From Apostichopus japonicus (Eukaryota; Echinodermata; Holothuroidea; Aspidochirotida; Stichopodidae), in assembly GCF_037975245.1 (NCBI RefSeq), contig NC_092565.1, positions 9,282,499 to 9,346,498 of the forward strand: a stretch of DNA of 64,000 nt, in the 5' to 3' direction. The notes under the pieces were generated by a model. The model saw nothing but the letters and a program-made list of their open reading frames with translations. It had not been told where the DNA came from and made no database searches. Made by a program: the position numbers and the translations under genes. Positions 13,301 to 59,770 of this stretch are shown in pieces (the stretch's first letter is position 1; each line of letters opens with the position of its first letter).

Positions 13301-16300
13301 GCATTATAGAAATCTATTTCAGCCTACCAGCTGTCAATGGTCAGTAGCATGTACATGATTGATCATATTTTTTTTAATGAAAAGTTTACTTTTGATGTTT
13401 GCCCAGGTCAAAGGTCAGGAGATTTACGTGCAAGGGAGAGCTCATCTGGAAGTAGTACAGATCCGTCAGATGGTATGAAGATTCTTTCATCTTACATCGG
13501 GATCAATGACCACCTACAGGGATCCAAAGTAGATCATGGTGACCTTGCACCTAAGGTAATTTCATATCATATATTGAGATCAATAACATTGATCTTTAAC
13601 TAGTTGGCAATGTAGGCCTACTACTAACTAATGTCACCAAATACAGGAATAACCAACGATTGAGTACAGGAATAGCTAGCCTAGTGTATCACAGGGACCT
13701 CACACCCTGGAAGTTAATGTCACATCATACGTTGGGTTCAGTGAGCACATAACCTTAACTAGTGGGCAGTGAAGGCCCACTACTAGTGTCACCAAGTATA
13801 TGAATGACTGATCACTTAATTAGTACAGGCTCATGAGAGGATCATTCGAACACACCTAAGGTAATGTGATTGCTTGCACGCTGATCACTGACCATTGAAA
13901 CTTTACTAGTGGACATTGAGGGCCAAGCACTGTCTATAAATGTCAACAATACTATAAGAACAGATGACTACCCACAAATGTCATCTAAAGGTGTGAATGT
14001 GATATTTTGATCAATAACCACTAAAATGTTATCTAGAAACATTGAGCAAAACTACCCCCAAACTGTGCTGTAAGATATGGCATCTGTTCTATGACTTTGC
14101 CTTCAGTTAAAGTAAGTCACAAAAATGGGTCACAAATATTTTTCGGTGGGTCGCAGGGTCTTCCCACAAGTGGGATAATGTATCTGCAGCATGCTTATGG
14201 AGATCCATTAAGTTATTTTAGTCCATGTATTGTATGTATTTAAGATCCTCCTGCAAGCAGGAACTCGCGAAGAAGCCTCATTGGCTTATCAAAGCCGCAA
14301 GCTGGTCGAAGTCAGTCTCTTAGATTCATATTTAACGTCCATGATTATGAATTGTCAATTGTCAACAACTCTGTAACTGGATGACATACATTAATCTTGG
14401 AGTGACGCAAACCGGGGACCTTATGATTGGAAGGCTCCGGCGTTAACCACTGAGCTAACACTCCTATGGATAGTCCAAGCTAGCTTTCATGCCTTCTAGT
14501 ACAGACCTTGTGGGTCTCAAAACTTAAAAGTGGTAAAATATATGCAACCTGGACTGATATAGCAGTGTTTTGTTAACGGTCTACCACATATCAGAATGAA
14601 CACTGTACCCAATAAGCTACACATTCAAAGACCTTTCACATTGTTTCAACCAGATGTATCTCTCCGTGGTATCCATGGTAACAACTTGTTTTTCCATTAT
14701 TCATTTTTAGACTAAGGCAAGCAAACAGTCTGACTGATTTCAACAATTCTTAGAAATCATTTGAGCATAATAAATTCCTTCCTGTTCTTTTAGCCCTTGG
14801 TAATAACATTTCTTTTGAGGTACAGATTTACCTTAATTATGGTAGATTGCCCACATTCATCTCTTTAACTTCCTCGCCTTTCTTTCTTTCTGGTGGTTAA
14901 AAATCTTTGTTCGATCTGTTGGGATGATAGATGACAGCTTAATTACATATATAAGAGAAATACACTCAAAAGTCATACTTATTTGAAGTTGATCAGTTGC
15001 CCTAGTTCAGCTCTCTGTCTATAGAAAGGATTTCAGTCTTGTATGCTGAAAACTCTTGGTCTTTGGAATGTATCATAGGACACAAAATGTAAAACTTAAA
15101 TTGCAAAGGAAAATTTACAAAGTGTTTTGATCGTTATTTCTGGATCGGAGCAACATGGAGGAATTAAGACCTGTATACATTGGAACTTTAACATTTCCCA
15201 GAGGTGAGAAAATTGCCAAAAAATTAAGTATCTTTTATATTCAGTTTGTCCAGTCTTTTATTATATCAGCATTTTTCCTTTCCACAGGTATTTTGTGTTG
15301 TATAAAAATTGGAATATTTAAATTTCAAACAGGCAATTGCTGAAAGTATGTTCCAATATTCAAAGCAAAAAGATGAATTAACAGAGTATTTTTGTATTCA
15401 ATGGAAAGTACTTTCAGGACAGTGGGAGAAAGTGTTGCAGTTTGAAATTTTACCTGTCCATGAAAGCACTATTGGATATCATATCTTCTGATATAGGGTT
15501 CCATATCCTCTGATACATGGTTTCATATCCTATGATACATGGTTTCATGTCATATGATACATGGTTTCATATCCTCTGATACATGGTTTTATGTCCTCTG
15601 ATACATGGTTTCATATCCTATGATACATGGTTTTATGTCCTCTGATACATGGTTTCATGACATATGATACTGGGTCTCATTTCCTATGATACATGGTTGG
15701 CATGTCCTCTGATACATGGTCTCATGTCCTCTGATACATGGTTTCATGTCATATGATACATGGGCTCATGTCCTCTGATACATGGTTTCATGTCCTCTGA
15801 TACATGGTCTCATGTCCTCTGATACATGGTTTCATGTCCTCTGATACATGGTTTCATATCCTATGATACATGGTTTCATGTCCTCTGATACATGGTTTCA
15901 TATCCTATGATACATGGTTTCATGTCCTCTGATACATGGTTTCATGTCATATGAGACATGGTTTCATGTCATATGATACACGGTCCCTTGACCTCTGATA
16001 CATGGTTTCATGTCCTCTGATACACGGTCCCTTGACCTCTGATACATGGTTTCATGTCCTCTGATACATGGTTTCATGTCCTCTGATACAGTGTTTCATA
16101 TCCCTCTGATACATGGTTTCATATCCTATGGTACATGGTCTCATGTCCTCTGATACATGGTTTCATGTCCTCTGATACATGGTCTCATGTCCTCTGATAC
16201 AGGGTTTCATGTCATATGATACATGGTCTCATGTCCTCTGATACATGGTCTCATGTCCTCTGATACAGGGTTTCATGTCATATGATACATGGTTTCATGT

Positions 16301-19300
16301 CATATGATACATGGTCTCATGTCCTCTGATACATGGTTTCATGTCCTCTGATACATGGTTTCATGTCATATGATACATGGTCTCATGTCCTCTGATACAT
16401 GGTTTCATGTCCTCTGATACATGGTTTCATGTCATATGATACATGGTCTCATGTCCTCTGATACATGGTCTCATGTCCTCTGATACAGGTAAAATAATAG
16501 CCCGGCAAGCAGAGCCCATGCAGGGGCTTAGTACATTAATACATTTCACCTCACAAATCTGGCGATAACTGAAGTAATGTACCATTCCATCTTATCTCTG
16601 TTTGTACAATGTGATGATTGGTTTCGTGTACGTCACACAACAATTTAATGAAATATAACATTTTAAAACTAAATAGGTGTAAAACATTGAAGAAATATGT
16701 AAAAAATATGTAAAATATGTAAACATATTAAATTTGATCTGTATATGAGCTGTCACTTTGTTGTACAACAGTAAAGGTAGATGTTCTAATCCTGCACCGT
16801 CTAGAGGAAAATATTATGTTACTCTGCTGGAAAAATATTACTTTATACTCTGGAAAAGTCTTGAATTACTTTATAGTGAAACCAAGGATGGGGTGTATTC
16901 TATCGCTGTGCAGTTTTGAGTTTGTTTCGATACTTCATATTCTCCTCATCACACCCTGTCCTTCAAGGGGAAGGGGCTAATTATCTCTTGAAATTCAATC
17001 TGATACAAATATCATACAGAGTTAACATGAAGCACCATGTCACTATCATTTACAATGTCTGCTATTAAAAATGCCAGGGAGTGCAGAGCTGCAAATTTCT
17101 AACCGGATTATATTTTCATTTTCCAGTCAGGGCTGGAGAAAGAGATTGATGAAGCTGTTGCCGCTGGAGATGTTGATAAGGCTGAAGAGTTGAGTAACTA
17201 TCTAGCCTCAAGGAACTTTGCTGTCCGAGTATCAGAAGCTGCAAATGCGAGGGATTATGCAAAGCGGAAGAAGGTGAGATTATACCCTGGTGTGTTCTTG
17301 CATCTCCATGTGGGAAATTCAAAGATTGCTTCAAGGATAAAGCAGCTCGATAAAGCAACTTATACAAAGAACAACAGGATTTCATTGGCTAACAGCTTCA
17401 GATGCTCTAGCCCTCCCCCCCCCCCCCATACTTCCTGGCTATATAGATGCTCTAGCATCCCCACTTCCCCCTCCTACCCATACGTTAATCTTTTTCTGTT
17501 GGCTTTTATGTAACTTGCTATGCACAGCTTCATTGATAAATAACTTCCAAGGTCCCTCACAATATTGACTCACAGTAATGAGGGATCCTGTCTTTAGCAA
17601 TCATCAATGTTACTGATGGAGGTCTCTCTCCTTAAATGTCTAGAATGAATAATCAAATCAGAGGCCTTGTGACATTTTATTAAAGGCAAACTGTGTAGGT
17701 CTAGTTGCATGAAGAATAAGTTCCCAAGGTAATTGAAGTTGCTGTGTGCACCTTAACTTACGAGTAGAGAAAATGATGCTTTGTGGTAGTTTCTGTTTTG
17801 ATTTGAGCTTTTTTGCAGACCACTATTTTGCTAAAGTCTGATGATGTTTAAGCCTCGCACAAAAGAAAGAAAAGATTATTGAAGTATTTGTTCGGTCAAA
17901 TAGAAGTTAAACTTGACCACTCGCAAGCAAAGCAAAATGTTTTGTGTTTGGTGTTGTTAATTTCAAATGTTTCCTTTTCCCTTTTACCACTTTACTGAGG
18001 ATAGATTCCTAATAGTTTACTCCATCCAGCAAATAGCAAGAGCAATAAGTCTGAAAAGAATCTTTCAAACCATTCATCTCTTTATTATGAACACGATTCA
18101 TTTCAGTTTAATACTCTGTATATTTGTCCTGGTTGTCGGGACACGGGAAGGGATTCTTTCGTATCTTCTTATAAATTTCACCCAGTGGTTCGTGACCATT
18201 CTTGTCGATCTCTCGTGGCTGAAGCAGACAATTTGTAACAAATTCCTTGCTGATAGACAATCTGTTCATAATGTTGGCGTATCCCCTGAAATCAGCTGAC
18301 TGTATCAGCTGCAGCTTTAATGCTGCATTGGACAATTACGAGAGATTAATGAATTCACCCATGTGAAGGCAAACTAAAAATCAGTATACCAAGAAATGGC
18401 ATAAAATACGAATATGAGGCTTTCTGTACCTCTCAATAACTGCACAACAATAGAAAGAGCAGAGACCCTTTGCTATGGTGATGCAGAGTGCATTCTGACT
18501 TAATTATTCACGCATGATTCTGATGATTTTAACCGAGAAAGACAGCTTCCAACTAATTCAGAATTAACAGAGCATGTATTGTAATCTTCTTAAAGTTAGT
18601 GGGTCTATTGGTGATTGTTAAGTACAGAAAGAAAAGGAGAGAGGGGTTTAAACGGTAGATTATTATAACAGTGTTTATTTAAGGAGCTAAGAGCTCTTTG
18701 TTGCCTTTTGCATGCAGACTAGTACCATAGAGACAAAATATTTACAGCTGGTTGATGTTTCCAAGGTTTTTAATTCCCTGGGAAGAAGGCAGAAGTAAAA
18801 AACCCTGGAAATGATGAGCAGAGAATTAAACAAATTTCCCAAAAAATATTTAAGTATGTGATGAGGAGGATTCTTAGAGATACTGAATGTTGATGAAAAG
18901 CATCTGGGTGACAACATTTTGATGATCAAATCAGTTTCATTTATTATACAAGTTACTAATTAACCTCTGTAAACTTGGTGACAATCTTGCAGTGTGCTCA
19001 AATTGGCATTTCAACTTGTGCAGTTCGGTATATAAAACATGTGTTATAAGAGGGGAATCAAAGTGTGTAAATCAGTTCCACACATGAAACTTGCAACAAA
19101 TGTTTCCAAAAATGTCTAATATAATTAGGATCAAACATTTATATAGTTTTAGTGATCAACTCATAGTGCAGCCATCTATGTACTGCTGGTGATTCATTGC
19201 TGACAGTACTAAGACTCATAGCAACAGGTAATTAAGTTTCGTGATACTTGCTAGGAAATATATGACAAGTGCCCTCTCTTGATCTTTGTTTGCCGTTGGG

Positions 19301-37959: not shown

Positions 37960-38938
37960 ATGACTTCAACTGGAATAAGTCAGAAGGAGTTGGATGAGTA
38001 TACATCTGGACTACAAGAGATTGGAGAGCAAGCTGTCTGGTCTCTTTCTTCCTGCAAACCTGGCTTTGGGATTAAACAATTACGAGACAATAGCACAGGT
38101 GAATTTACATGAGATAACAGTAAAGAACTTAAAAAATTATTTGGTTTGTTCAGAGCTAGTTCCTACAGTATCATTGTAAGTAAATTTAGTTAGTAGAACT
38201 ACATTGCAACTCTGCATTATGCAAGCAGATAGACAAAGTGCTAGTTCCTCAAGTATCATTGTAATAGTGAATGAATGAATGCTAGAATTCATATCAAATT
38301 AGAACGCCATGTAAACAATATAGACTTTTCTGGCTCACTCCACTCACTTCTTGGACAAATTTAACTCACTCGCTATTGGAATTTTGAGCAAATTATATGG
38401 CAAGTAATCACTTTCTGGTTTTATTTTTAACGTTGAAACTCTCCAGATGTTTTGTATAGAATCAAATTTATGCAGCCAGCTACTTTAAGCAGTGAGAAAT
38501 TAATTATGTTGCTTTTTGTATATTCTAGATACTTACTGGCAATCAGATGGGACTCAGCCTCATCTAGTTAACATCCAATTCAGAAGGAAGACCACAATCA
38601 ACTGCATCGCTATCTACGCCGACTTCAAATCGGACGAAAGTTATACCCCAAACAAGGTCTCCATACGAGCAGGTAACAATTTCCATGACCTGCAGGAAAT
38701 CGAAACAAGGGAAATAGGGGAACCATGCGGCTGGATCTGCATAGACTTGAAAAATTCCAACGGCAGTACTTTACGGACATTCATGCTGCAGGTTGCTGCC
38801 TTGTCTAACCATCAGAATGGCAGAGACACTCACATGCGACAGATTAAAGTGTTTGGCAAAAGGAAAGAACAGTTCTCTGTTACGAAAATGCCAACTTTCA
38901 CTTCCAAAGAGTTTTCTGTTTTCAGCTCCGTCAGATAA
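37960..38938 (+). CDS. ANAPC10: Anaphase-promoting complex subunit 10 (DOC1), 2 coding exons, 182 aa
   Basis: Exons 37960–38098 and 38529–38938 (stop TAA) join at phase 1. Family knowledge: APC10 is the DOC-domain subunit of the APC/C ubiquitin ligase and helps the co-activator bind D-box substrates in mitosis. The N-terminal ~20 residues are unconserved. Then come QAVWSLSSCKPGFG, LRD, DTYWQSDGTQPHLVNIQFRR, IYADFKSDESYTPNK, GNNFHDLQEI, GWI and ANHQNGRDTHMRQIK-type segments (here SNHQNGRDTHMRQIKVF), matching the human protein (185 aa) almost throughout the jelly-roll domain. The start ATG (37960) is chosen because conservation begins shortly after it and the length matches. The upstream in-frame extension is not conserved. 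The protein ends in Val-Arg where vertebrates have Ile-Arg. The small 430-bp intron holds nothing else. Confidence 0.95.
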
Positions 38939-43753: not shown

Positions 43754-46700
43754 TTAAGATGAAGTCGTTGTTCCTTCTCCTTCTTCTTCTGCCTCTACTT
43801 CAGCGTGCAACGGTAATTTCTGATGGAGATACGTTTTACCTCCAACTTGGGAGAAATCCTGGACGCATTCTCCTGTCCCTTCCAGAATCCATTTTGTGGT
43901 CAAGAGACCTTCGACGCCGACAGGACCTCTGGCGTGAATTCGAGTAGTACTGATGCCGACTTCTGCACCTGTAGGTTGACCCGAACCAAATCAAGAAACC
44001 GGTTAAAAATAGCCGCTTCATTGAGGTTTAGTTTTTGTCAAAACTATTTATTCAAGGATAATCTAACAATTATAGAAGCTTGCATGTATTGCTGATATAT
44101 TAAACTTCCATGACAAGAATGTGAGCAATAGATGCTGAATTAAAATTGAAGTAATTATGGCTGGAATGAGATGGTAAAGAATAAACCCTTTAAAAGCAGT
44201 GTTTCTTAACCTTTTCCCACTGCTCCCACCTATTAGCAATTGAAAACAAAACATTTGCACCTCTTTACCAGCTCTGTAAAATGGGGCTAATTCTTTCAGG
44301 AAATAAATTGTTTATGCCTGTAGCTTCGGACCCCCTGGAGTCCTACCTAACATCCCAGGAGGGTGCCTTAAATGGGATATGCTGGGGGCTGACAATGATT
44401 GCTCAACAAAATAACTGAAGTTTTCAAAATGGTGATATTTTGTGCATGCATCTGGCAACAACAAAGTGAGTGATGTAACCATGGCAATTGAGATAAATAT
44501 GCCTTTGTTTCTTTACTTTATATAACATTTTCCCGCATTTAGAGGAAAGTAATATTTCTACAGAAAAGTTGCATTATTGATGGACTACACATTAACAGCT
44601 AAAACAACATTCCGAATATAATGTATCAGGGTTCAAGGATAAATGAATGAGAAGATTTTACTGGGAAAGTAAAGTGTTCTGAAGACCATCTACAGTAATG
44701 ACACCACAGACTGCATACTGTGATCCACCTCCTTGAGGAAAGCATGGTTTAACCAGTCAGAATAGGTCACATGCAATCGACCATACCTCTCAAGTTAGGG
44801 ACAAGATATCGAAATGGCATTTTCAAATAACGGTGTGGAATATCATTTCTTTACTATATGTGTGACATTATTTGCCGTGAGAATTTCAGTTCAAATTAAT
44901 GGGGCAATCCCAGAATTACGACTGATTCTAGCCAGACCGTGTTTGGCTTACCGAGACCAAATCTGTACCCATCAGCAAACCTTGAGCTGGCATTATGGAA
45001 AACACAAGCACTGTCAACAGATTCCAGGAAATGGTTAGCAACTGATTCTGTTAAAAGGAAAAGGAAATTGTTCAATATGATCGTGTCACATGTTTTCAAC
45101 ACTGCAATAATACCAGGCAAACCTAACTACTGTAACCGTACCAACCTATAAACCGCAACAATCTTTTTAAGTCCCACACCTAGCCTAACAGCTTAAATGA
45201 TCTCTCTCAATTCCCCTTGGTAGCCGGCAGTCTCATTATCATGACGAGGAAGTCTTTTTCCTATAGTTGATCACAGCCTCAAAGAATGGGCACATCAAAA
45301 CTTTAAGGCCCAAATACTGATATTTACACAAGCTTGTATGTAAACACATACACTGTAACATTTCTAATTTGTCAAAACTTGTGTTACAAGATCATTCTTT
45401 CATGGATGGTTTCCTCTTCACCCAGCTATGAGGTAATAACTTCACAATGCTCTTTTAAATATGGGAGGGGTGGTTACTATAGCAACATTTTCACTGTAAC
45501 ACATCTTCCATTGTGTGATACTATACACACACTTATGGATGGATGTTTGTTTACACATGGGGTATAGGTCTCCCTCGATGAGGGTGTGTAATTGTCTGCT
45601 TGACTGACTAAGGTTCTTCCAAAGTCACTAATTGGGATGTATACCAAGTGTGATAACAAAACACATGCACCCAGTACATCCAAAATAACACTGTTTCAGA
45701 GTGACTATCATCAGACAGCAGCAAGAAAAAAATAAATGGATGGGCTATAAATGTCATAAGACTCCCATTCTGTGTTTGAATGGCCACAGTTATGACAATG
45801 TTTGGCATACCCACCCCCTGTTGTAACTACAGTATACTTAAGGCTATAAGAACAAACTGTTTGAACACTAACTTTAATCTTCTGTGACAATCACAGCTGG
45901 GTGTGGACTGTGGACTGCCACACTCACTTATGATTTATGATAAATGATATTGAGTGACATATCCACACCCTGTCATAAGTAGAGACTGCTTAAAGGGAAT
46001 TAGAAAAGCATATTTTAAGACTAGCTTACCATCTTCTGTGACTATCACATCTGTGTGTGAGCTGCCATATTTATGGATGTGGTCAACAGCACTGTTCACT
46101 CCATCTACAACCTCTACAGCACACTCCAGTCCACTGTACTCAACCTTCAGAGATTTGGCCTCAGCTGGACCAAACTTCAAGGAACATGCCAACCTTGGGC
46201 CTGGATGAATTTTGACCTAACAAAATTAGAACAAGAATAGTCAAAATGGCAAGGTCACATTATTTGTAATTGATTGTAATGTCTTATAGTGTCCATCATT
46301 GCCTGAATTTTTATCAAAACTATTAAGATATATGCTGGAATTGTTTTACCAAAACTATTCAAATATATGCTGGGATAGTCTCCCAAACTTTGAAAAGACC
46401 ATAATGAGCTGGAAAACTACATTGGATAGCTACCCAATGTGAAGTGTAAGTTAACAAGCCATTCTGATTCTCCCCCATACACATACACATGGGGCTGATC
46501 AACATCCTAAAGTAACTGTCTTCTTGGTCAATTATTATTTTAAGATTCTGTTAGTTTTTGAATAGCATTCAAGACTGGGTTAATCTATTCAACAACATAA
46601 TCCCACATGAGTAAGACATCAATATGGAGAAAGTCAAGCAACAAAAAATTTCTGAAAGATTGCATCATCAAATACGATGGAAGCTTTAACAACTAAAATT

Positions 46701-49700
46701 TGTATAGAGGGTTAGATCATCACAACCTGTTATTACATATCCTGTATTTAACAATGTTGCACATAGCATGACACACAGCATTAATCAGACAACATACTTG
46801 GGGTGAATATTGCTTGGAATTATTTACCTTTTCGGCTCGTAACATATCCAAAAGTTCATCAAAGAGAGGGGTATCTTGAAGATTCTTGTGAATTAAGAGC
46901 GTCTCCATGGCATTGCATGCAGCAGGGTAGTCACATTTAGAATCACGCACTGTAAGATGAGTCCAATATAAAAACAATGAGTCTTGACACTCTGGTAGTC
47001 AAACTATTCAACTTGGTGACCCTAATTTTCATCATTGTTTGCTGGATGTTGTCTCCTGAGGATGGGAGTCTATCGGAAGGAGGCCTTTTTGTATGATTAT
47101 GGGAGAGTAGTCCCAAAATGGTGTTACACTTAGCAACTTTTGAAGTACTTTATGTTCAAGTATTTCCCACATTTTTTGCCACAAGTATAAAAAAATTGTT
47201 GTTTCTTCTGAATTTTCCGGCTTTTTTTTTGACCTCCATAAATTTTGGCGACTCTGAACAGGGTTACACCCGAAAGTTTGCATATCAAGGTTTTAACAGA
47301 CATTATAGGAGTAGGATATTCTACATTCGTCTTTCTCGAGAGGTTCAATATATAGGTTAACTTAAAGCCATAATCTTAATCTCCATCAGCACGCCAGGGA
47401 ATGATAAATTTTTCTAAAAACCTGACAAAAAATCCTTCGACCTGCCGAACGGTTTTTGCAACCCACGTTTGGTTCACAGCACATAGTTTGCGGACCATCG
47501 CTTTGACATTTGAAAATGCGCTCTTTAACACCACTGCCATAACAGTTTACTTGCCTCGGGATTGAATAGGCTCTCGCAGTAGATTGGGGGAAATTTGAGC
47601 TGAGGAAGTGACTTTTCCATGCTCGTTCCCTTTGCTAGGCTTGGCGAATTGATTACGTAACACACAGGCTAATGTTCCAGACTAATAACCTTGAAAGGTG
47701 CAGAAGTGGCCAGTGGCGAATAATGAACGGCAGTCTTACTAAAGGGTGGATTTTAGAACGACATTTGTGGGTCAACATAGTGACTGATTACTGACTGATT
47801 GATAATCTCACCAATTTTAACCGCCATGTCTGGATCAGCCTTCTTGTCGATGTAAACATGGCAGATGCCATCAGCATGGCCTAGGACTGGGATGGCTTTG
47901 CTCTCCTTCTTGATCCGAGAGACCATTTCGTTGGATCCTCTAGGGATGACCAGGTCTATGAGTCCTTCCAATTGAAGTAAATCTCCAATCTGTTCTCTCG
48001 TGTTGATCTTTGATATCAAGAATTTAAAGAGTTACCATGACCACCAATCATTTCGTTTTAACTTTTTTACTCCCTTTTATCTCTCATTCAAAATCAAGCA
48101 AACAGTTTTGTATTTTTTTCCTTGGTGTATTTAACTTGAATGTTATCCCTAACTTTTGCACCTATTACAGGTATTTGTAGTAGATGGATAGATGTAGCAG
48201 AAAATATATTGAAAACTATGATAGTGTAAGAAACATGATTGTGAGTTGGAATAGTTCATTTGCCTGAGCATCCTCGCTACATTCCCCAACAAATAGATTA
48301 AATTTATGTAATAATCAGGCAACAATGTACTGTGTATAGAACGAAACATCTTAAAAATTATTCCTCTCAGAGCAGCTTTGCAATCTTTTGTGCCAGACGA
48401 TATTGGTCGTACTCGTATCTATGTATTTCTGTGCCAACCACTTCCTATCTCACTCCATGAACAAAACAGCCAATTGACACTATAAATGTATGAGAGCAAA
48501 CTAATGATTACTATAAACTTTGAGAACATTTTGTTATTTACCAATTGCACCGCATCCTTGGCACCGTGTAAATCAAGGGCTTCTTCTACTAGTGAATGGA
48601 GCACCTTGTTACTCTCTGTGGCTTCCTTTCCACCTTTCAGGAGGATACCGTTCGCGCTACTGATAGCCAGGGAGGCAACCTAAATGGGTAATAAAATAAA
48701 TGTGTGGTATCAAGACAAAGATTCAACGTTAGATGGATGAAGACATTTTTATAATACACAGAAAACTTAAAAGGCTGACCGTATGCAGAATTTTAGCCTT
48801 GATATATCACAGTATATGCCACGAGAAAGGAAAAATTTCAGTGCTAGAGATGTTCTTATTTTCAAGATATTCAGCTTCCAAATATTAAAAACTCTCTGGT
48901 ATGCTCCTTCAAGGCTAAATTGTTGATGATGTGCAGGCCTAAAATATTACTGTTAATCTATTGATTTTAAATCCATTGTTCTTTTTTTAAATTTTAACAA
49001 CTGAATCACTGCATGTTCTTTTAAAGTTCATATGAGCAAAAGAACCCTGCATGGATATAATTCAATACCATGTGTCTTTACAAATTATATGTAACGCATT
49101 ATAAAACTTATATTTGAGGCCACAACATTGTCATGATCTCCGATCCAGTTCTGTGTTGCATCCGAGGAAGTGACCTACAGGTCTGGATACAAAAATATTT
49201 TCAAACTCATTTGAAAAGGGAAAAATATGTTGGCTTCATCAATAAAAAACAGTACATTTTGAACAACATTGAAAAGAAATATTCAACTTGAACTATTTGG
49301 AGAAAAAAAACCGTCTTTTAGGGGGAATTCTTTACCTGAGGGAGACAGTCCGGACGAGATTCGAATATGACAATGAGGACGCCGATCGGAACCGTAATCT
49401 TCCGCAACACCATTCCCTCGGCAACCAACGTCCTACTTATTACTCTTCCAACTGTGTCACTAGAGGAAGCAGCAATCTGCTTCAGACCCTCTGCTAGACT
49501 CAACAACTTGTGTTCGTTTAATGATAACCTGGCTACCATTGGTGGAGCCATAGAAGCTGTTTGAATATAAAAGAAGAAAAATGAAGAGAATCAAAGAACA
49601 AGGACATTTTTGGCCAGAATGGGAATTTAGCAAGTGAATTCAAGAATACAAAGGCCTGTCTGCTCTACTTACTACGATAAATGGTTTAAAAAGGTTAAAG

Positions 49701-52700
49701 TTCAAGGTTTTCAGTCTTGTATTGATTGAGGCAAGGGCATTCTGACACAACTTTGTAACAGTTAACCCCTGGTCACTGGTAACTTGTCAAACCCACACAC
49801 CCCCCAACTATGTACAATTCAAGCAGTTGTTTTCAATGGCACAACTTTGCTTTTGCTCTGTAAGGCTTAAACAGTCCAGACCTGTACAACATATGGACCG
49901 GGAGGCTTAAACAGTCCAGAACTGTACAACATATGGACTGTGAGGCTTAAACAGTCCAGACCTGTACAACATATGGACTCTGAGGCTTAAACAGTCCAAA
50001 CCTGTACAACATATGGACTGTGAGGCTTAAATAGTCCAGACCTGTACAACATATGGACTGTGAGGCTTAAACAGTCCAAACCTGTACAAAATATGGACTA
50101 TGAGGCTTACATAGTCCAGACCTGTACAGCATATGGACTGTGAGGCTTAAACAGTCCAAAAATGTACAACATATGGACTGTGAGGCTGAAGCAGTCCAGA
50201 CCTATACAACATATGGACTGTGAGGCTGAAACAGTCCAGACCTATACAACATATGGACTGTGAGGCTTAAACAGTCCAGACCTACACAACATATGGTCAA
50301 ATGTATGACATTGTCTCTGTTAAGCCTACCATCACATTGACATAAATGCTTCAATGGCGGAACACATCAATGTTCGAGATATTAAATTCCTTAAATTTGC
50401 TTTATACTCTAATTCTGTTGATTCTGCATGCTACTTCTGTTTGTAAAATGAATGGCAATGAGGATCACAGTGTAAAGACATACTCATTCGAGCTCTGTTC
50501 AAATCACGCTTGTTAGCAGTCAGGATCACTTCTTTCCTCTCAATGAGTAGATCTGCCAGACGATTAATTATTTCAGCTCTCTGTCGAGAAACAGGAAAAG
50601 AAAACACACAATGATAAATATTCTGCTTTTGTGATGTCATGATGAAGGTACCAACAACATAACAAAGCTCATAAACTTGTCAACATGCCAGTTCTCTGCA
50701 TATGAGCAAATGAAGCTGAAGCAATAACAAATTATGAAAGATGCAGAGGAAATTACAACAGTACAAGTGGAGACTTTTTGTCTAATATTTTTGTATTTTA
50801 CCTTTTCAGGAGTCAAACTTTGCAAAAGTCTACCACCATCTCTCGCTCTGGTAGCTTGGATGTCTGGAGCAAGGCCCGCAGGCTTTGTCTCGGTGAAAAA
50901 CGTTCCCACATTGCGGCCGTTAACGATGTTTAGGACGACGTCATCTTTCTTCATGCCGTTAGCAATGACGACCGAACAGCCTCTCTCTAGGGTCCAGACC
51001 GCAGACTTAACCTGACACACAGTAAAATAAATATGTGTAACTTAGAAGGTTGAACATCTTTCATTTTTATGAACAATCTTTGAGATGGTTTTTAAATTCT
51101 GAAGAATTTTTTAAGGGAGTCTAGATAACTCTACTACCTTTAATTTAAATATGTCAATACAAGTATCATACCAAGGTTACACTGAGTTTTGTCTGATTAT
51201 TTATTCATCAATTTCATGTAGTATAGCACATAGCTAGAGTAAAGGTTACTTGCCATACATTTCTATAAGTAATTTCCTTCATTTTGGTGATGCTAGGTAT
51301 CACCGACCAGATGGTACGACTCCAGATTTAAAGTCATGTCACTAATACCATAACCTATACTGTTAAGTAAAGGATATTAGTCAAATTTGGTCATAAAAAA
51401 TTCATTACACATCACCATCAGTTTTAAAACCTCACAACAAATGAGATCAATTTTAGGACTGAAGAAAAATAGACATGATCACTCCCTCGTCAGATATTTG
51501 CCAAATTAAATCCCAAATTTTCATCTACACGTCTAATCCCTTTTGAGAGCATGCTAATATTATTTCACCACTGCCAAGTATAATACCTTTGATTCCATGC
51601 CTCCGAGTCCGACCCTCGATTTGCCTCCAAATTTGATGCCAACAACGTCACCGGGATACATGACATCATGTAGCCGGGATCCTTCCTCCTCCGGTGGGCC
51701 GCTGTAAATACCATCCACATCAGACAAGAGGATGAGCAGGTCGGAGTTCACCTCGACGGCCAATCGAGCGGCAAGGCTATCGTTATCTTTGATGCTTATG
51801 ACCTATCATATGGATAAATAATGTTAATATGATCACTTTAAAGCAAAAACGTTGATTTTCATATACAAAATAGTTCACCAAAGTAGAAATATGAATGAGG
51901 AAATACTTTAAAATACATCAACCACATGTCAGACATAATTATTTAAAATTAATCTATAAGTCTAACAATTAGAAAGAACTTATTCCCAAATATAGTTCTG
52001 CTTTAAATGAAAAAAAAAAAAAAAACACCAAACCAAATTTGTGTTTGGTATTTGAAAAGGTTGTCCAATACTGTAACTGTTAATTTTGTTGAAACAATAA
52101 TCATGTAACTTAAAGGGAATAATAATGGCATTGCAATGAAAATTGACTTATGAATGTTACTTTTCAGGTTTTGCAGTTTTTATGTTCAAATGAAGTCATT
52201 TTCTATCTTTACATGATCTCCTTTAAAAATTCCTACATAAAGCTGCTCATATTATGCATCAGTACTAGTCTTAAAACTAGAGGTGCGTGTCAGTAAATAA
52301 CATCATCATATTAGTCTATAATGAAAAATATCATCAGTTACAATGAGCGACTCTTTCCTTACAGATCTCAGGCTTCCAGACAAGCTACATTAGATTAACA
52401 TCCGATACAATGGATACATAATTATGTTAAATGACCTCTGGAGAGCATAGATTTGTGATGATGGAATTAAAATGAGCGAGAAAACACTCAGTGGTCAGTT
52501 GGCTACCATGAACCACAATCTGAAGAAAAACAACAAAACAGATACACTGATACAAGAAATAGTGTATGTCTTAGCTACAACAAACTTCAATGTTAAAAGA
52601 CTTTAATATGGTAGGCAGAGAAGTAGGCATGAATATGAGCTCCATGATAACAATGCACCAAATAAAAACTGACTTAGTGTTTTTGACTTTTTGACCCAAC

Positions 52701-55700
52701 CAGTCATTGAACTTGAGTGTATCAAACTAGTTGCACTTAAAATCTTGATCTCCTGTGAAGTAAACAAAACCAATTTTACAAACTATATTCTGGCACATGT
52801 TCATGCAACGCTTCCCACCTATAGATCCCACAAAGAGTGTTTCCCTTCTGCTTCTTAAGCAATGTAGCTCTTTCATTTTAACCTTGCCTGAGGTGATGTT
52901 AACTTGAAGTCAACTAGAGCAAGTAATTATTGACGTTTGATAAGAAATTTGTACAATATGCTAGAGCCATCTTCGGGATCAATCACACAAAATATGGCAG
53001 TCTGATGTGTTTAATGCAGAGAAATTATTATTACTATTATTAAATCCTATAAAGGACAGGGTAGTTAAAAACCATTTCCTTCCCCAAATAAGCACCCAGT
53101 GATTCTTTAAATGTATTAAGCCAGCCATCATCATATTAGATCACATAAGAGTTTGTTCAAATGCATCAAAAAAACTAAAGAAAACTGCACTTATATCTTT
53201 TGTCATATTATATGCTTGTGAACAATGATCTTGTGTACAGTGGCAATGACACTAGGCTTCAACTGTAACCCTTAGCTAGTATAGCAGGACCCTTCTGACT
53301 TTTATATTCAACAGATCATTTGAATGACTTCATTTTCATTTTCTGTTTACACTCTTTTGGATTATATCACCATAATTGTCTCCTAACTTCAAGTTGTTAA
53401 GTCACAAACTAAGTTTTCTTAAATATTTATTATTAATTTGTTACAGTTATATTATGATGACAAAGACATTATCAATATTGCTTGCCTGCATGGAGTTTTT
53501 GTTGCAATACATGATGCATGAATGTGTAGGAGGTACGTTAAAGGTCTTTGCCTTACCCCAGGGCTCCTTACCCCATGGAGATCCATATCTGCCTCTGGGG
53601 GTGGAGCAATCACATCGTTGGCGTTCACAATTGGAATGATCTTCATCCGTAACAGTTCAGTTAGGGTAGCCCGCAGATTACTCCTAGTGTAATCGTGTTG
53701 GAAGTCTGCCTTGGTGACTAACACCTTGAGAGTTTCGAACAGGGAAGTGTCAAAGTTACATAGACAGTCAAGGCATTTTCAAATTGCTATCAACAGTGAC
53801 GTTTACCACTGGCATTGCCAAAGGGCCAAATGTCTGTATGATATAATATATATCATATTCATATGTCCCTATAAAGGTTAACCATGAAACCAATTCTGGG
53901 AAAAATTCTCTTAATCCTACGTTCACCGTGCTTTGATGTGTTATCCACTGTCTATTTGCAGTACGATAATTGTAACTCTTTATGCTAGTGCTCGACAACA
54001 AATGGTAAGTGATAAATTGGAATGGAGCTTCACAGCTTAACCTCATTATTTCTACAAGGCTCTATTAGCTTCCCAGTAGGACACCAAAGCATGCAGCCAA
54101 AGAACACATGATAGTATACACACCAAAAAAGAAAAGACAGAAAAAGGTATTTTTGGTTACTTCTCGTAGCTATAAAATATTACTATATTGTTCAGGCTCA
54201 TGTGGTATCTTTATCCTCTATATCCCTTTTGTGTTAGGTGACCCCAATGTAAAAACTGTCATCATCTTGGTGACATTCCATTTGGGGGATGTGGTGGTCT
54301 GATCTGGGGTCTATTGAGAGGAGGTATCCCCCCCCCCCCCCCGGATGAGAGATTTTATTTGATTCAGGGTACTAAATTCCAAAATGATGAACATCTTGCG
54401 ACATAAGTATTTAATATTCACGATTGTCTCCCTTCTTGTCTTACTAACTTTTTGTGGCGACCATCAAACATGTTTTCGGGTCACCCCCCCCCCCCCTCCA
54501 GTTTGAATCCAGGGCTCTATGTGACATTGGACTAAAACAGTTTGAAACTATGAGGGTTTGTTTAAAGAAAGCCCCCAGCATTCCTGTCAAAGGGTGAAGA
54601 GTCACTTAAAATAGAGCATATGCTTATGAGACGGACTGACTGGTTGTTCATTAATTACCTGTGCAGTAGTCAAGCCATACTGGGAGAACATTGACTGGTA
54701 CATGGACATAAGTCCACTCTGCCCTGCGGCTGCACAAGCTCTGGGATCCAGCAGAGACTGGAACTGTAATCAAAGGTCAGAAGTCTATTCATTAGTTCTG
54801 TAATAAGTAATATACAGCACTAGTAGCAGTTTGCCATCACTGACCCTATCACTTGCTCAGATATTTACCAATGGCAATAATTGCCACAGGTGCCATCATA
54901 ATCATCTCAATCAAAAAACTGTGACTTGTCGATGCTAAATCAAAAGTGTCCAGAAAGAACAAAAAGTGTCATCTTCCTGTTTTCTGTTATTCCTGTAGTT
55001 TCCTAACACTTTGGATAAAGTACCATGGTTTCCTTTCAAAAACTAGAAAAATTGCTGTGGGACTCTGCCGTTTCAAAATCCAAGACCTGTCGATCCTTCA
55101 TTTTAGTCCTGGAGCTATGTTAAAGTGCCAAAGGAGCTGGATACACCAACTCTACTTGAAATGAGAATGGCACTGTAAAATGTTTGTGATTTATTATTTT
55201 TTTCCATCCATGCAAAACTTTGTCCCATGCACATGCAATATTTTAACAGTGATATCTCAATGTGGTCAATTTCAATATCTCTGCATGAAGTTTGTAATGT
55301 TTTCTTAAGGTTTATTTTTATCCACTTGTATCTATTCAATTGCAACTACCTACAATACTAATAGCCATTAACACTGGAGCTTACATCCGATATACCTAAA
55401 TTTCTGTCTGATTGTGTACTTAAATATGCGCTGGCACCAACATCTGATATATATAAACTTCTGACTGATTGTGTACTTAAATATGTACTAGGGCCAACAT
55501 CTGATAAACATCAACTTCTGTCTGATTGTGTACTTAAATATGCCGGCAAGTACCTCTTTGAGAACAACTACCCGAAAAAGCAATTTCAAGAATCACAAAT
55601 ATTTGCATCTGGCATGCACACTCTATTACATTTTGTCATTGTCATTACAGTACATATCTTAACCAGTATTTTTACTGCTATTTGTGATTAAATATTGAAC

Positions 55701-57885
55701 TTCAAACATTTCCACTGGGAATGAAAATTAAAGAGGGCAAAATTGCACAACATTATTAATTTAACACAAAGATGATATATGCTTCACACTTATTACTAAA
55801 ATTGAAATAGTAAATTAATGAGGACTTTCTAAAACTACACTCAATGTACATTCAAAATTCATTGTCAGAAATTAGGGGTTGCCAATAAAAGTTTTCAGTA
55901 AAGAAACATGTTCTGTTGAGGGCAATTAGAAAGAAACAGAATGATAACAAGCTCATTGATTCTTTGCTAATTTTTTCTGGGAACATTAACTGTAAACTGC
56001 ACACTAGGCTCTTATACCTAAAGTACTACAGACTCTTCTGAATTTACGATATGCACTCAATCCACCTAGTAACATAAAACTTTAAATTGGTAAGATTTAT
56101 CACTGCAGCCCATTAACCCACTTTCCCATCACTGTCCACTGCCTTATTACTCAGAGTCTACAAGTTTGTAGCCTTACAAACTGTAATAAAAGACATTTCT
56201 TCATTTGCTCAGATATAGAAGGGATTTAACAACTTTTGAAGTTCCAGTAATCATATTCAAGTATTCTTCCTTTCATAGTGTTTCATTAAAAGTGTTTCAT
56301 AATTTGCAATCCTGATTTAAATTATGACCTAATTTCATTCTTTATGGTAAAATTTTAATGGACACGAAGTGGTCTTGAATTCCGACTCTAGATGTCTTGC
56401 TGACCTTATCCTAAACGTGGACACTGTGGCTGTTAATTTATACCAGGACTTACTCTTTCATTGGATGGAATAAGAGTTTCCCTCATACTCTGAGATAACA
56501 TGACTTCTTGCTGTAGCCTCTGTTTGCCAAAGGCTACTGCACCACTTGTGACCACCAGCATCTGTCGGTCAGCCTGCTGCAGTTCGGACACCTATCAGAG
56601 AAAGACATGAGATCACCAACTTTAGCCAAGTATATGCAGTATTTACCAAGTGTTCTACGACCAACTGACTTACAACATACAGTATGTATGTACATTACAT
56701 ATAATATATCTATATAGGGAGTGGCTGGGTGAGCTGCCATTTTGTCACATATGTGATGACGATGATAAGACAATGAAGGAAACAACTAATGCCGTTGGTT
56801 TTACAAACAAGTTTCTTGCAAAGGCATTTCTATTGATCAAAATAATCCATGTAACGCATGAAGCGAACCATACTTAAAATAAAAGCACAGATGACTCTCT
56901 TTTTGATTTTTTAGATTTGACATCATTGTCCCAATTTTTAGTCTTGCATATGAAGAACATTGGAAACATTCTACCCTAAAAATGAATAAAAGTTTGGCTG
57001 GCTATATCAATGAGTTCCTCTTTAGCAATAAAAGAAAGGTATAAGTTTATTATGATCTTTGGCTTTTTTATGTCTGGATTAAATACTTCAGAAAATATAA
57101 GAGCACCAAATCATCACTTTGAAAGAGAAGTTTTCATAATGGTTCAAACAGAAACTGCTCTGAGTTACATCTTAGTACAATCAGTATCTGCATAATCAGT
57201 ATCTGAATATTCAGTTTAAAATGCTAATAGATAATTGACTATTCAATAAGGATAATCTCTGATTATTCGACTAATCTAAGAATCAAGAAAGTTTAAAATC
57301 CCCAACTTCTCACCTTTTTTGTCAAATACGAAGGTCATAATTTACAAACTATGCTCATAAGTGCCACGGTTAATGTTATGAATGGAACAAATTTGTGCAG
57401 TTTCATAGCATTACGAGAGCCTTCCTTTACCAATACTGTTTTCCTTGTTTAGGAACATGTTTCATGTTCTGGTACTTTCTTAATACCTGTTCAACGATGG
57501 ATGCTAATCTCCCAAGTGCAACACCGCATTCATCGTCCCGGGTTATTACTGCACTGCCAAGCTTTACCACAATCTTCTGACAGTGTTTCAGATCAGATCG
57601 AAAGGCAGCTGCTCTTGTTCTCGGAGTGCTGGTGGAAATGTTCCTTATTTGAGAGCTTTCACATGACCTCAATGGAGTGTTTCTTGGCAGAATGGAACGT
57701 TGATGGTGTGATGATATATTGCAACTGCTGAATGTAGTACAGTTACGCCAACCATGGGATTTGGTCAAAATCACATTTTTCTGAAGTAGGGGAACTTGTC
57801 CACATCGAAAAGTGAAATTGTTCTTTCCTTGGTAGCACCTGGACAACTTAGTCTGAAAATACTGCACTTTATGACAAAAAGCCAT
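43754..57885 (-). CDS. ALDH18A1: Delta-1-pyrroline-5-carboxylate synthase (P5CS), 14 exons, 830 aa
   Basis: Exons: 57487–57885, 56454–56591, 54659–54763, 53572–53724, 51587–51802, 50802–51011, 50484–50580, 49336–49556, 48542–48679, 47812–48007, 46828–46949, 46030–46216, 44952–45047 and 43754–43968. All are in phase. Family knowledge: bifunctional mitochondrial enzyme. Glutamate 5-kinase, then gamma-glutamyl phosphate reductase, make P5C for proline and ornithine from glutamate, ATP and NADPH. The N-terminal ~95 residues are Arg/Ser-rich with few acids, like a mitochondrial presequence. Kinase motifs: [12 protein letters not shown] (from 104), [43 protein letters not shown] and [12 protein letters not shown]. 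Reductase motifs: [40 protein letters not shown] with catalytic Cys636, [14 protein letters not shown] and [17 protein letters not shown]. Human P5CS has 795 aa; the excess is mostly the presequence and an acidic tail. Exon 4 has two in-frame donors. Intron 7 carries a 40-bp tandem repeat. Confidence 0.97.
49862..50296. repeat. 40-bp tandem repeat, ~11 copies, in ALDH18A1 intron 7
   Basis: Unit begins GGCTTAAACAGTCCAGACCT and continues GTACAACATATGGACTGTGA. Starts are spaced exactly 40 bp (49864, 49904 … 50264). Substitutions are few and there are no visible indels, so the array is young or homogenised. It lies 188 nt (in transcript sense) past exon 7 (50484–50580). Confidence 0.95.
53557..53586 (-). 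promoter_or_regulatory. ALDH18A1: Tandem in-frame splice donors of ALDH18A1 exon 4
   Basis: Read on the minus strand, the exon end is CATGGG|GTAAGG followed by AGCCCTGGG|GTAAGG. The two donors share GGGGTAAGG and lie 15 nt apart (exon ends at 53572 or 53557). Use of the distal donor would insert Val-Arg-Ser-Pro-Gly after Gly265 without changing the frame. Confidence 0.7.
55385..55550. repeat. 57-bp tandem repeat, ~3 copies, in ALDH18A1 intron 2 or 3 region
   Basis: CTGATTGTGTACTTAAATATG recurs with exact 57-bp spacing (ATTGTGT at 55411, 55468 and 55525), joined by ACATCTGATA-type sequence. It lies between exons 2 (56454–56591) and 3 (54659–54763). Confidence 0.85.
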
Positions 57886-59493: not shown

Positions 59494-59770
59494 ACCAGGA
59501 TCAGAGCCGTATATAAGGCTCTGACCAGGATCAGAGCCTTATATAGAGATATAAGGCTCTGACCAGGATCAGAGCCGTCTAAATATACGGCTCTGACCAG
59601 GATCAGAGCCTTGGCTCTGACCAGGATAGACTTCCTTTATAGAGGAACTCTAAACCAGGACAGATCCGTATATAGAGTGATATAGGCCTACGGCTCTGAA
59701 CCAGGATATAGCCGTATATACCGCTCTGAACAAGGATAGAGTTCTCTATAAAAGGAACTCTACAATAGGA
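59494..59770. repeat. Cluster of palindromic GGCTCTGACCAGGATCAGAGCC repeats
   Basis: CCAGGATCAGAGCC occurs four times between 59495 and 59611, often preceded by GGCTCTGA so that GGCTCTGA/TCAGAGCC form 8-bp stems around CCAGGA. TATATA or TATAAGG links them. The right half has diverged units with a second palindromic motif (TTCCTTTATAGAGGAACTC near 59632 and a relative near 59740). It is not a single simple period. Confidence 0.8.

Follow-up and report, generated by a model that had tools for sequence, protein, structure and literature searches.

The P5CS (ALDH18A1) gene of Apostichopus japonicus carries two identical splice donors at the end of its exon 4, spaced 15 nt apart and in the same reading frame, so that the exon has two possible ends and the product may or may not contain the five residues Val-Arg-Ser-Pro-Gly (VRSPG). 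Aligned to a solved enzyme of the same family, these residues fall into a loop over the glutamate pocket of the kinase. The analysis covered a window of 64,000 nucleotides (C5:9282499-9346498), and genome-wide searches were run on the 671.6 Mb of the same genome, held in 35 contigs.

The identity of the gene was established by family membership. The model on the minus strand of the window is complete, running from 57885 to 43754 with GT-AG at every intron and its sole stop at the very end. Its product matches the NCBIfam equivalog family for P5CS, TIGR01092, with 1007.9 bits over residues 96-815, well above the cut-off of 796.75, which upholds the assignment to ALDH18A1/P5CS made in the original prediction. 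The solved P5CS chain 7f5t likewise matches the gene product, with 920.8 bits over residues 95-813. If the downstream donor is used, the product grows to 835 aa. We also searched the animal's own genome with the 299-aa spliced product of exons 4-8, scoring the best candidates only. All five matches correspond to exons 4, 5, 6, 7 and 8 of the gene in the window, and at the sensitivity of this search P5CS therefore appears to exist in one copy and to lack a retrocopy. A processed copy in which the spliced junction could have been read directly was considered as a source of evidence and dropped, neither a retrocopy nor a paralogue being among the matches to this query. The coordinates of the gene and of the features at the junction are collected in the table.

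Table. Features of the P5CS/ALDH18A1 gene and of its exon 4 donor site, in positions of the window.
Feature	Position	Strand	Basis or remark
Whole P5CS/ALDH18A1 gene	43754..57885	-	14 coding exons, 830 aa in the short form
Exon 4, short form, ending in ...DMDLHG	53572..53724	-	
Exon 5, starting with VISIKDND, acceptor common to both forms	51587..51802	-	
Upstream donor GGG/GTAAGG, intron from 53571	53566..53574	-	exact 9-mer, donor score
Downstream donor GGG/GTAAGG, intron from 53556	53551..53559	-	exact 9-mer, donor score
Optional 15-nt exon extension, Val-Arg-Ser-Pro-Gly	53557..53571	-	translation

Several further features of the window were recorded. A family scan of open frames gave one match in four, an ANAPC10-matching frame at 38504-38935 on the plus strand (Pfam PF03256, E 2.2e-56), which marks a neighbour gene on the strand opposite to P5CS. 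Two introns of the P5CS gene contain repeats, namely a minisatellite in intron 7 (49858-50296, 11 copies of a 40-bp unit) and a tandem repeat in intron 2 (55383-55543, 2.8 copies of a 57-bp unit). Another tandem repeat, the unit of which includes an inverted repeat, lies upstream of the gene at 59494-59612, and at 15479-16487 a 22-bp unit is repeated about 46 times as a minisatellite.

Exactly two copies of the donor motif GGGGTAAGG are present in the window; they lie on the minus strand at the end of exon 4. The expected mean is 0.21 copies per window, and two or more copies were seen in 3 of 100 shuffles. The exon end reads GAT CTC CAT GGG/GTAAGG AGC CCT GGG/GTAAGG. Both resulting junctions with exon 5 are in phase 0 and keep the frame, their translations differ by VRSPG alone, and read-through with neither donor used leads to a stop inside the intron. 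The tandem-donor observation at P5CS exon 4 is thereby confirmed: the repetition of the motif at 15 nt, the two exon ends at 53572 and 53557 and the in-frame insertion of Val-Arg-Ser-Pro-Gly had all been predicted, and the GT positions and translations agree. The range originally assigned to the pair was right as to the exon ends and too short for the second 9-mer, which extends six bases past it.

Both exon 4 donors score 10.1 bits, and the other 12 of the 13 donors of the gene range from 2.1 to 9.2 bits. These scores were obtained with a matrix of vertebrate weights applied to all 13 donors; because the two 9-mers are identical, the equality of the exon 4 scores does not depend on the weights. 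A GT site of equal or better score within 45 nt accompanies 2 of the 13 donors, one case being the exon 4 pair and the other exon 5, whose weak donor (51587, minus strand, 2.5 bits) has in-frame GT sites of 3.9 bits at -27 and +18. Judged by sequence, exon 4 ends in two donors of usable strength that are in frame and close together, and it can be classed as a putative short-distance tandem donor.

We estimated how often such a pair is expected by chance by counting the 9-mers in the window that score at least as high as the donor; besides the pair there are 17, at roughly 128,000 positions on the two strands. On the basis of these 9-mers, a given junction is expected to have an equal in-frame donor in the next 30 nt downstream in 0.13% of cases, and within 45 nt on either side in 0.40%. 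In 71 of 20,000 shuffles of the local sequence with its dinucleotides preserved, an in-frame donor at least as good arose between +3 and +45. An equal donor pair is unusual at one named junction, but a genome with its many introns is bound to contain some. As to the origin of the pair, 12 of 13 nt match across the donors at the 15-nt offset, which suggests a short tandem duplication over the junction with later drift; a chance match is also possible. Tandem Repeats Finder reported no repeat at the exon 4 donor site. In a survey of the window for 11/12 matches at offsets of 12-30, with low-complexity 12-mers left out, the donor pair is one of 33 groups, many of which lie in the minisatellite at 15.5-16.5 kb. 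The exact tandem pair was found five times in the animal's own genome, two of these matches lying 270 nt apart on one contig, and with three matches for the reversed-pattern control the tandem motif itself is hardly enriched.

For the position of the insert within the enzyme we relied on 7f5t, taken to be the Drosophila enzyme of PMC8963878, in agreement with its residue M213. The comparison of this P5CS with animal sequences consisted of that protein alone. Residues 171-298 of 7f5t align to exons 4-5, and the long form is gapless there. In 7f5t the residues SPP are followed by M213, and residues 214-228, FIRDDEPAGGARRGI, are aligned to the insert site. According to the passages of PMC8963878 available to us, region II of Drosophila P5CS is disordered at residues 214-228 in the P5CS-Mix filament and at 211-232 in the P5CS-Glu filament, it is open with G5P, which is contacted by M213, and it was speculated to be a closed loop trapping bound glutamate; the same passages support the idea that region II has a role in regulating catalysis. 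The VRSPG insert sits, by alignment, in the stretch corresponding to this region II loop, proposed to open and close over the glutamate pocket; this placement is a new observation.

Counted from ND to DND, this loop has 19 residues in the short form, and both the long form and 7f5t have 24. Two plant P5CS chains have 17 residues, and 10 were counted in two glutamate 5-kinase chains as well as in three ProB loci of bacterial MAGs, which came from 63 pattern stretches in genome contigs and were used for loop lengths only. In human P5CS the loop comprises 19 residues in the short and 21 in the long form. The counts from solved structures refer to five of the eight matched chains (7f5t, 8j0e, 8y2h, 2w21 and 8zpj, with 2j5t, 4q1t and 2ako not counted), of which 2w21 and 8zpj are hardly independent because their loops are identical; the species assigned to these chains are presumed, in part on the basis of papers. 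Searching viral contigs with exon 4 as query returned 68 pattern stretches and no confirmed relatives. Taken together, the compared lengths place the junction in a loop that varies naturally in length, with both forms inside the range seen. Seven of the eight solved chains score the short form above the long one. The sole exception is 7f5t, with 118.0 bits for the long form vs 114.7 bits for the short form.

A donor switch is known at this place in mammals. The choice between P5CS.long and P5CS.short was reportedly described by Hu et al. in 1999. The junction studied here is apparently the same as the mammalian one, presuming that the human junction letters given in the original prediction are correct. 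Alternative donors of mammalian ALDH18A1 give rise to forms that differ by two residues, Val-Asn, and the short form is found mainly in gut and is sensitive to ornithine; these points, of which the original prediction had drawn on the first, are borne out by passages of PMC1779574, PMC8584052 and PMC12523316. The insensitivity of the longer form is described there and, together with the properties of the short form, in PMC11061531. The second mammalian donor lies 6 nt downstream of the first, GTAAATGT (PMC1779574, in part).

Our best explanation, to which we give an even chance of being correct, is that a tandem donor born by duplication is spliced mostly at its upstream site and yields some long isoform with a longer lid. 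Most likely, a local tandem duplication of the exon 4 junction would have created the second identical donor 15 nt downstream, and U1 would be able to recognise either of the two. By a rule of 'first come, first served' the upstream donor would then give most of the mRNA, encoding the 19-residue loop, and the downstream donor a minor share encoding 24 residues. A preference for the first of two equal tandem donors was observed in a library of designed sequences in human K562 cells (PMC6783452, in part). In predicted accessibility, donor 1 is more unpaired than donor 2 in six of seven sequence contexts and less so in one. Since first-site preference and accessibility both favour donor 1, the short form is expected to predominate, accompanied by some of the long one. 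RNA structure as the switch itself was considered and rejected, given ordinary folding (z -1.10) and an accessibility difference that is small and depends on context.

In the protein, VRSPG would lengthen the flexible lid over the glutamate kinase pocket, and a longer lid may alter how readily substrate and a feedback inhibitor, either ornithine or proline, reach the pocket, much as the mammalian Val-Asn alters ornithine inhibition. Such control by lid length is plausible. Inhibition of bacterial and plant kinases by proline is reported to be competitive, and the inhibition of the human short form by ornithine is called allosteric (both in passages of PMC11061531); a proline pocket is predicted beside the substrate site (PMC6099280, in part). 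We infer that lid length could act on such an inhibitor. Counting against the best explanation as a whole are the scores of the long form with seven of the eight chains, the hardly enriched motif, the negative result of Tandem Repeats Finder, the alternative sites at exon 5, the ordinary folding and the one context with reversed accessibility. Two findings from the literature count against it as well, namely the selection on human tandem sites cited below (PMC2279118) and the frequent occurrence of unused tandem-donor motifs in constitutive exons (PMC2423196, in part).

A simpler reading is that one donor, probably the upstream one, is used nearly always, and that the second is a recent neutral duplication or a chance product without a role. 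We consider this somewhat improbable, although it has to be taken seriously. The first-site preference of PMC6783452 agrees with it, as do the five genomic matches of the pair vs three of the control and the lack of visible similarity, apart from length, between the VRSPG loop and that of 7f5t. In human, selection acts against in-frame tandem sites with shifts of 3, 6 or 9 nt where the encoded protein region is ordered (PMC2279118, in part), which again speaks for a silent second site. However, the two 9-mers are identical, so that the donors themselves offer no difference that would explain exclusive use of one, and the site lies in a loop that varies in length and is disordered in Drosophila P5CS, a place that would tolerate an insert.

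The opposite case, in which the downstream donor is spliced constitutively, leaving the upstream GTAAGG as a silent decoy within the exon, would fit the equal length of the 24-residue loop in 7f5t and the slightly better score of the long form with that chain. The seven remaining chains favour the short form, however, and the short end resembles the mammalian short form, as far as the presumed human letters go. First-site preference (PMC6783452) points in the same direction, and we regard a constitutive long form as improbable. Less probable still, and in our view very improbable, is a conserved, regulated and ancient switch common with mammals in which the insert alone has drifted. The gene is the same, the junction apparently so, and both inserts begin with Val; this residue is shared because the donor itself supplies GTA. 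Mammals shift by 6 nt and add Val-Asn, whereas in this animal there is no GT at position +6 from the upstream donor and a copy-like donor stands at 15 nt instead; the 7f5t loop carries neither insert sequence. The downstream donors are not one feature, and therefore an inherited switch is unlikely and an analogous one possible. Of the two origins that the original prediction had left open, the ancient one with a drifting insert is thus disfavoured as far as the downstream donor is concerned.

If both forms are made and are inhibited differently, this lineage would have evolved its own feedback switch, independently of mammals, in the same P5CS loop. Its mechanism would be the length of the active-site lid. 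The placement of the insert also connects the mammalian switch with a structural element, the region II described for Drosophila P5CS. A wider and rather unlikely proposal is that the P5CS kinase lid is a recurrent target of splice tuning in animals, and that in this lineage the duplicated donor toggles a lid of 19 or 24 residues and sets feedback sensitivity, convergently with mammals. A link between the mammalian switch and region II was not met in the passages of the cited papers available to us, and the letters 'splic' never occur in the main text of PMC8963878. Among the matches listed in literature searches, titles and abstract openings named no tandem donor in an invertebrate P5CS, which leaves its absence unproven, and for ALDH18A1 with 'echinoderm' they concerned only unrelated topics; the available passages of PMC5500668 contain nothing on P5CS isoforms.

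Among the known systems closest to the one described here is mammalian ALDH18A1, an orthologous gene that also has tandem in-frame donors at a kinase-domain exon end and an insert starting with Val. Judged from the sequence, this animal shares with the mammalian switch a pair of in-frame donors where an exon ends within the glutamate kinase loop; a parallel switch is a candidate only. The 6-nt shift adding VN is absent and is replaced by a shift of 15 nt adding VRSPG, and the two donors are identical here. Short-distance tandem donors such as the GYNGYN type (PMC1779574, PMC2279118 and PMC2423196, each in part) share with exon 4 two close, competing donors and a subtle in-frame insert, but the classes treated in those passages span 3-9 nt, less than the 15 nt found here, and the copies in this gene resemble a duplication more than overlapping GT motifs. 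P5CS of Drosophila melanogaster (7f5t series, PMC8963878) is a member of the same enzyme family with a loop as long as that of the long form; outside the flanks, its loop sequence is unrelated to the loop containing VRSPG.
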